From an uncultured Granulosicoccaceae bacterium (GTDB taxonomy: Bacteria; Pseudomonadota; Gammaproteobacteria; Granulosicoccales; Granulosicoccaceae), in contig CALGLE010000012.1 in NCBI GenBank assembly GCA_937930305.1, positions 1 through 64,000 of the forward strand: 64,000 nucleotides of DNA, given 5' to 3'. The translations under genes and the position numbers were made by a program. Positions 13,965 to 15,700 of this stretch are shown here, in pieces. Below the pieces are notes generated by a model. That model searched no databases. It was not told the origin of the DNA and worked only from the letters and a program-made list of their open reading frames with translations. Within the stretch, counting starts at the first letter, position 1. Every line of letters begins with the position of its first letter.

Positions 13965-15239
13965 TTGTTTGTGAATATTCCAGGATTAAAAGTTACGTCT
14001 CGAACCTTAACGGTGATGGCCCTGCCTATGATGGTGCTGGTCGCACCTAGCCTTAGCGCACGTGGCATTTCAGATCAGTGGTATATCGGCATAGGTGGCA
14101 CGGGTTCGTGGCTCCAACCCGATCCCGATGAGCCTGGGAATAATGTGAGTGAAGCCGTGGGTGCTGGCGGCACTTTCATGCTGGGTAAGGATCTTGATTC
14201 GCGAGCCAGCTTGCAATTTCAAGGCGTTTCTCTTGGCGAGGCGACACTCGATGATGGCAATACCGTTGCCTACAACGCAGCCGACGCATCCGTGCTTTAC
14301 CGCTTCTTTGATACCCGAGACAACAATCTGCGTCGCAGCTCAGGCTTTGGTACATCCGGATATGGCCGCTTTGCTTTGGGCTACATGTCGCGAGAATCCG
14401 ACACCGATTTAGAGAAAGGTTCTGAGGTTTATTTTGGTGTGGGCGGCGGGCTTGAAACTTACTTCACACAAAATATTGCTGTGCGAGCCGAAGGATTTTT
14501 CCACGACATCGATTCGGTTTCCGCGTCGGTAAGCTTGGTGTTTCGTATTGGTGGAACTCGTCGTGGCCCAGGCCCACTACCAGGCTCCACCGCAGCACCT
14601 CGCACGCCCAACACGCCGGTAGCACCAACGGTACCGCAAGCACCACCACGACCTGAAGTGCCATCCGCCCGACTGCCGGTGCCGACTCAGCCGGTTTCAC
14701 CCACGGTACCCGCAGAGCCCAGGGTGCCCGAAGTACCCGCCGCAGTACCTACTGTTCCGGTACAGCCCAGCCAGCCCGTGCAGCCGAGTCCAACGCGCAT
14801 TGCGGATCGAGACCGTGATGGCGTGTCAGACAATGAGGATACCTGTCCGCAATCCACGCCGGGGTATCCCGTTAAAGCCAACGGCTGTGCGCTATTTGAT
14901 GGCGTACTCAGTGGCATTAAATTTATTACCGCGTCCGATCAATTGGTGCCTGGTAGCGAAGCTCAGTTGGATTACTTAGTCGACATTTTGGTGAATCAAT
15001 TTCCCTCTGCTCGTATTGAGTTGCACTCGCACACCGACAACGATGGTGATGTTCGCTCGCAAGCGGTGCTTACTCGTGGTCGGTTAAGAACTGTTGGCAC
15101 CTATTTAGTTGATCGGGGTGTGCGTGCGAATCGCTTAGTGTTGCGTTCCTTCGGTGGCTCGCGGCCGTTGTATGACAACGCCACTCAAGAAGGACGTGAT
15201 TCCAATAATCGCATCGAAGTGCTCGAGCGGCCGCAATAA
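13965..15239 (+). CDS. OmpA family outer membrane protein: beta-barrel, proline-rich linker, TSP3-like motif, OmpA domain
   Basis: Barrel-like N-terminus, Pro/Val-rich linker, DRDRDGVSDNEDTCP, IELHSHTDNDGD...SNNRIEVLERPQ. Confidence 0.85.
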   Translation: MFVNIPGLKVTSRTLTVMALPMMVLVAPSLSARGISDQWYIGIGGTGSWLQPDPDEPGNNVSEAVGAGGTFMLGKDLDSRASLQFQGVSLGEATLDDGNTVAYNAADASVLYRFFDTRDNNLRRSSGFGTSGYGRFALGYMSRESDTDLEKGSEVYFGVGGGLETYFTQNIAVRAEGFFHDIDSVSASVSLVFRIGGTRRGPGPLPGSTAAPRTPNTPVAPTVPQAPPRPEVPSARLPVPTQPVSPTVPAEPRVPEVPAAVPTVPVQPSQPVQPSPTRIADRDRDGVSDNEDTCPQSTPGYPVKANGCALFDGVLSGIKFITASDQLVPGSEAQLDYLVDILVNQFPSARIELHSHTDNDGDVRSQAVLTRGRLRTVGTYLVDRGVRANRLVLRSFGGSRPLYDNATQEGRDSNNRIEVLERPQ

Positions 15240-15325
15240 CTTCTGCCGCTCACCATCACCCCAGGCGTTGGCTTACTCAGCGTTGGTTTTGGATTGCATT
15301 TGTTGCCGGGCCCATCGCTTGGGCG

Positions 15326-15700
15326 TTGTTGGTGGTTATAGGCGTGCCGCGCCCAAGTGGGTGGCCCGGTGCAAAACTGTTTTTAATCATTGTATTGGTC
15401 TCGCCCATTCTGGAAGAGATCGTGTTTCGTGGTGGATTGCAGGCTCGGCTGTTTGATCAGCCCCGTTTAGCGCGTTCTTTCGGTGCAAAGTTTGGCGCTG
15501 GTGTGAGCTATGCGAACATCATGACTAGCCTTATTTTTGCCGTATTTCATGCGCTTTCTCAGCCACTTCTATGGGCTGCGGCTGTGTTTATACCCTCGTT
15601 AGTGTTTGGTTGGGCGCGCGATAGAACAGGTTCTGTTTTTCCTGGCATGGTGCTGCACGCATGGTACAACTTAGGGTTTGTTATGCTTTTTGTTCGGTAG
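15326..15700 (+). CDS. CPBP/glutamic-type intramembrane protease, MrtJ-like (JDVT-CTERM system); start uncertain
   Basis: SPILEEIVFRGGLQ, SYANIMTSLIFAVFHALSQPLLWAAAVFIPSLVFGWARDRTGSVFPGMVLHAWYN; compact protein as in MrtJ. Confidence 0.75.
   Translation: MLVVIGVPRPSGWPGAKLFLIIVLVSPILEEIVFRGGLQARLFDQPRLARSFGAKFGAGVSYANIMTSLIFAVFHALSQPLLWAAAVFIPSLVFGWARDRTGSVFPGMVLHAWYNLGFVMLFVR

Follow-up and report, generated by a model that had tools for sequence, protein, structure and literature searches.

An intact mrtJ protease gene without a conventional start codon, and its candidate ATA start overlapping the stop codon of an ompA-like gene

The window analysed here, a stretch of 64,000 nucleotides from an uncultured Granulosicoccaceae bacterium, carries on its forward strand an ompA-like gene whose 3' end runs into a gene for a glutamic intramembrane protease (Table 1). 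The protease frame (15209-15700, + strand) is open between an in-frame stop at 15206-15208 and a TAG at 15698-15700, and its product is MrtJ, with 101.3 bits against the NCBIfam profile NF033192 (curated cut-off 75) and 66.8 bits against PF02517, the Pfam family of the CPBP/Rce1-like fold (gathering cut-off 22.4). A genome search returned it as the sole strong match to MrtJ, and three proteins of the same genome, on contigs C23, C16 and C32, score above the JDVT-CTERM cut-off, so this MrtJ is no orphan and probably has substrates. By family, motifs and genome substrates it is a JDVT-CTERM protease, its cleavage activity being predicted. Like the known MrtJ/JDVT-CTERM pair (NF033192/NF033191), the set passes both curated cut-offs, carries the same catalytic motifs and comes with three substrates in the genome; unlike it, the window mrtJ lies behind an ompA-like gene, has its substrates on other contigs and is without a conventional start. 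The neighbourhood described so far for mrtJ is beside a single substrate gene, and sporadic (PMC11980579), whereas in the window its neighbours are the ompA-like gene and a convergent gene, with no substrate gene adjoining. A Foldseek search of the PDB with a MrtJ model, itself built from 8 sequences only, gave no significant match to any structure.

Table 1. Features of the ompA-like/mrtJ locus (window positions)
Feature	Coordinates	Strand	Remarks
ompA-like gene (barrel, TSP3-like hinge, OmpA domain)	13965..15239	+	PF00691 44 bits; stop TAA 15237-15239
4-nt ATAA overlap: proposed start ATA 15236-15238 / ompA-like stop TAA 15237-15239	15236..15239	+	sole table-11 start ahead of helix 1
mrtJ, glutamic intramembrane protease	15236..15700	+	154 aa if the ATA is the start; NF033192 101.3 bits
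First transmembrane helix (model residues 16-34)	15281..15337	+	AlphaFold2 pLDDT about 90; D..FW.AL.AGP..W conserved
EExxxR motif, catalytic Glu pair (EEIVFR)	15413..15430	+	invariant in mrtJ alignment
FxxxH motif	15536..15550	+	F101 (15536) and H105 (15548) invariant in alignment
HxxxN motif (HAWYN)	15656..15670	+	H141 (15656) and N145 (15668) invariant in alignment

As for the upstream gene, its first listed start is a TTG (window 13965-14020), and the true start would lie ahead of a signal peptide. A second ompA-like gene is found elsewhere in the genome, on contig C32, where it follows a JDVT-CTERM gene with an overlap of 1 nt (L033:329-3090) and encodes a protein 30% identical to the ompA-like protein of the window; both proteins match the TraB profile far below its cut-off. 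The combination on C32, a CTERM protein plus a partner with an OmpA domain, resembles myxobacterial TraA/TraB, whose ORFs overlap (PMC11980579).

The protease frame contains no in-frame ATG, GTG or TTG before the TTG at 15326, and the region RWFWIAFVAGPIAWALL of the window aligns with the conserved first helix of MrtJ relatives. For comparison we drew on about 98 mrtJ loci, taken from the genus, the family and the class to which the window belongs (a few entries represent one contig twice). Across 253 genus pairs the helix 1 segment, taken as the 17 codons before TTG 15326, gives a median pN of 0.38 and pS of 0.81, against 0.36 and 0.78 for the core, and third-position changes are in excess; constraint is far weaker in the tail that precedes helix 1 (pN 0.63 in genus pairs). 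Between the window and its closest relative, pN and pS come to 0.17 and 0.55 in helix 1 and to 0.23 and 0.65 in the core; the frame is free of internal stops and the motifs are intact. Residue conservation extends upstream as far as Trp 15269, and the roughly 10 codons just 3' of an ATA at 15236 are not conserved relative to the closest relative, so selection supports coding only from about 15269 onwards. An AlphaFold2 model of MrtJ (mean pLDDT 82; 8 input sequences) has residues 16-34, counted from that ATA, as a confident helix, and TTG 15326 is residue 31 on the same count. Since helix 1 is conserved and under purifying selection like that of the core, translation must begin upstream of TTG 15326, and conservation places the start of mrtJ upstream of about 15269.

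A shortened protein that starts within helix 1, at TTG 15326 or at ATT 15293, would have in its favour that TTG is a normal start codon and that the catalytic motifs lie downstream of TTG 15326. However, the codons before the two sites (W, QRWFW) are conserved with a third-position bias, and both sites would lose the basic residues that relatives keep (83 of 98 have two or more K/R among the 15 residues preceding the anchor), so we regard such a start as quite improbable. For TTG 15326..15328 (+), the first conventional in-frame start, the 17 preceding codons evolve like the core and its use would cost 30 residues, deleting most of the helix that the model predicts with confidence. ATT 15293..15295 (+) sits inside helix 1, two codons past the conserved Phe 15287 and after the conserved W, QRWFW. 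That mrtJ has lost its start and is decaying, as the absence of a conventional start might suggest, is a reading we consider highly improbable in view of the core pN and pS to the nearest relative, the unbroken frame and the full set of motifs, and of its being the only MrtJ match in a genome with three JDVT-CTERM proteins. The gene is real and intact, and it is without a conventional start codon.

In these respects the preliminary description of the locus, which had been drawn up from the letters and their open reading frames, was right: it had recognised an MrtJ-like protease with EExxxR, FxxxH and HxxYN motifs, had pointed out that ATG, GTG and TTG are missing between the stop at 15206 and TTG 15326, had taken the segment before that TTG for the first transmembrane helix and had seen that the frame overlaps the 3' end of the ompA-like gene. 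Its suggestion that TTG 15326 might be used with a shortened helix does not survive, given the 30 residues lost and the conservation of the codons ahead.

At stop-to-stop level the mrtJ frame overlaps the ompA-like gene by 31 nt and is offset by -1, and the C-terminus of the ompA-like protein (NNRIEVLERPQ) agrees with that of relatives. Of the 26 open codons before the conserved Phe 15287, only the ATA at 15236 is one of the seven start codons of table 11. It shares two bases with the ompA-like stop, so that, if ATA counts as a start, an overlapping stop and start are present on one strand as ATAA; ATG, GTG and TTG are absent from this overlap. The Shine-Dalgarno match before ATA 15236 is weak (-2.6 kcal/mol), and if the ATA is used translational coupling must carry it. 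We lean, with some reserve, towards reinitiation at ATA 15236 after the ompA-like stop and a low output of MrtJ. Ribosomes would end the ompA-like protein at TAA 15237-15239, step back one base into the -1 frame and restart on the overlapping ATA at 15236-15238, which would give a low yield of a 154-residue protease beginning fMet-TSAAHHHPRRWLTQRWFWIAF. Translation of mrtJ would then depend on the ompA-like gene. We infer each part of this, namely use of the ATA, reinitiation in preference to independent binding of 30S subunits, and an MrtJ output that is low and linked to the ompA-like gene. A non-canonical start and reinitiation had both been among the options of the preliminary description, and together they fit best, at ATA 15236, a codon absent from its list of candidates; ATT 15293, which it had offered as an example, falls inside helix 1.

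At 22 of 24 loci of the genus, the gene ahead of mrtJ is this same ompA-like gene, and the frame relation of the two genes is -1 in seven, 0 in one and +1 in fourteen. This variability argues against a conserved frameshift fusion. The preliminary description had considered -1 slippage from the OmpA gene, and the two frames in the window do overlap with the required -1 offset. Yet the 31-nt overlap holds no slippery heptamer, and a product in which a periplasmic or outer-membrane OmpA-like part is joined to a protease of the inner membrane would have an odd topology, so that together with the shifting frame relation an OmpA-MrtJ fusion protein seems to us hardly probable.

In the comparison of N-termini and of the ompA-mrtJ junction with relatives, which had been put forward at the outset, helix 1 is kept upstream of the position of TTG 15326 and weak starts recur. 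In the -1 group the codon lying over the ompA-like stop is ATA in the window and in L002, CTG in L010 and L018, TTG in L014 and L026, and GTA in L025, with overlaps that read ATAG in L002, CTGA in L010 and L018 and TTGA in L014 and L026; L025 has an ATG further on. In the closest relative (ATAG, as for L002) an ATA likewise overlaps the stop, and stop and helix are 38 nt apart just as in the window; a further TTG 18 nt downstream is a possible alternative start there. Neither L010 nor L018 has a usable ATG, GTG or TTG before helix 1 (the one TTG of L010 is directly next to the conserved Phe). Their tails share LNxxADELHH right after the CTG, and the codons for A, L, H and H within it differ silently; over the whole tail, 13 codon changes are replacements and 5 are silent, so only the first part is conserved. 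In the +1 group the candidate start is usually a TTG within the last ompA codons. Such an in-frame TTG is present in 13 of 14 members, whereas the other ompA genes have it in 5 of 11 cases (p = 0.02, uncorrected for phylogeny); the evidence for its retention is only moderate, since a codon-pair version of the test (15/28 against 6/20, p = 0.14) is not significant.

These relatives also bear on the main rival to the ATA, a consensus base error at the junction or in the N-terminal tail that would hide a conventional start in the true genome. The assembly is a draft in 55 contigs, a single substitution of TAA by TGA in the stop would yield ATGA, and three relatives (L028, L106, L132) with no table-11 start of any kind hint at errors or decay. 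On the other side, the closest relative, a separate genome, repeats both the overlapping ATA and the 38-nt distance, which also suggests that there is no indel at the junction; L010 and L018 likewise lack a usable ATG, GTG or TTG, so such an absence is not unique to the window assembly; and neither the ompA-like C-terminus nor MrtJ is disrupted. On balance, we judge a base error to be unlikely.

Outside the genus, overlaps of the form NTGA recur with TTG, GTG or CTG, and ATGA is seen once (L113). Weak starts are also found at overlaps with an upstream gene that resembles a JDVT-CTERM substrate gene (TTGA in L080 and L085, CTGA in L082). An ATG is present at 19 of 48 tight loci and at 32 of 50 others, a modest difference (p = 0.026, uncorrected for phylogeny). 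Within the 45 codons that precede the anchor, seven of the 98 loci are devoid of ATG, GTG and TTG. Among these seven, L084 is a longer fusion whose frame has an ATG farther upstream; L028, L106 and L132 are without any table-11 start before helix 1, for which error, decay or some other cause may account. The tail of L028 has a nonsense codon relative to L071. Genes with an OmpA domain also precede mrtJ in genera and families elsewhere in the class (L068, L069, L076, L081, L089, L102, L105, L106, L111, L115, L121, L122, L125), so the ompA-mrtJ neighbourhood is wider than the genus.

How well the proposed ATA start is precedented may be judged from other genes. In Escherichia coli, infC has an AUU start, and the infC of the present genome has an apparent ATT start behind GGAGG with no ATG, GTG or TTG ahead (L135:1489-1491), which suggests that this genome tolerates starts not ending in G. 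In Staphylococcus aureus, infC and ccpN start at AUA, ccpN with some 10-30% of the output from AUG, and these AUA starts carry strong extended Shine-Dalgarno motifs (PMC13009471). For Streptomyces sigR, GTC is a reported start (PMC5472188). Reinitiation at the ATA would resemble these throttled non-AUG starts (infC AUU/AUA, ccpN AUA and sigR GTC) in that a weak start lowers the output of a single gene. The difference is that a strong extended Shine-Dalgarno motif compensates in the S. aureus AUA genes, whereas mrtJ in the window has a weak match and an overlapping upstream stop.

The sigR case also lends something to a start outside table 11, for instance AGG 15263 or a codon of the His-rich tail, or to some unrecognised recoding; so do the fact that selection marks coding only from about 15269 and the existence of relatives that lack all seven table-11 starts. 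But no such site has a Shine-Dalgarno-like element or a conserved codon, and the ATA is both better placed and better precedented, which leaves us giving this alternative little credence.

Termination-reinitiation at 4-nt stop/start overlaps has been tested and is established, and lists of the possible overlaps assume that every start codon ends in G (PMC6728339, PMC10666635). The ATAA of the window is like the ATGA type in that the start codon and the stop codon have bases in common and the second gene is read in the -1 frame (PMC6728339, PMC10666635). It differs in that its TAA stop makes the start an ATA, whereas the canonical form needs TGA and a start ending in G; mrtJ relatives, too, depart from the ATGA type in having mostly TTG or CTG in place of ATG. 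Judged from the sequences compared, weak starts at gene overlaps, mostly TTG, suggest a wider tendency of the mrtJ family. A bolder extension, which we put forward tentatively and with more doubt than belief, would see MrtJ across the genus, and sporadically in other gammaproteobacteria, as a protease deliberately held at a low level by starts that are weak or non-AUG (TTG, CTG, ATA) and lie at or inside the 3' end of a coupled OmpA-like or substrate gene, with the ATAA of the window at the extreme.

In practical terms, gene finders limited to ATG, GTG and TTG would miss or truncate MrtJ in the window and in at least two relatives (the CTG cases). ATAA is a 4-nt overlap with a TAA stop, a combination disallowed for canonical start codons, and if it works, 4-nt termination-reinitiation is not confined to TGA stops and G-ending starts. 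It would then also point to coupling with a partner or substrate gene as what sets the amount of a sorting protease.
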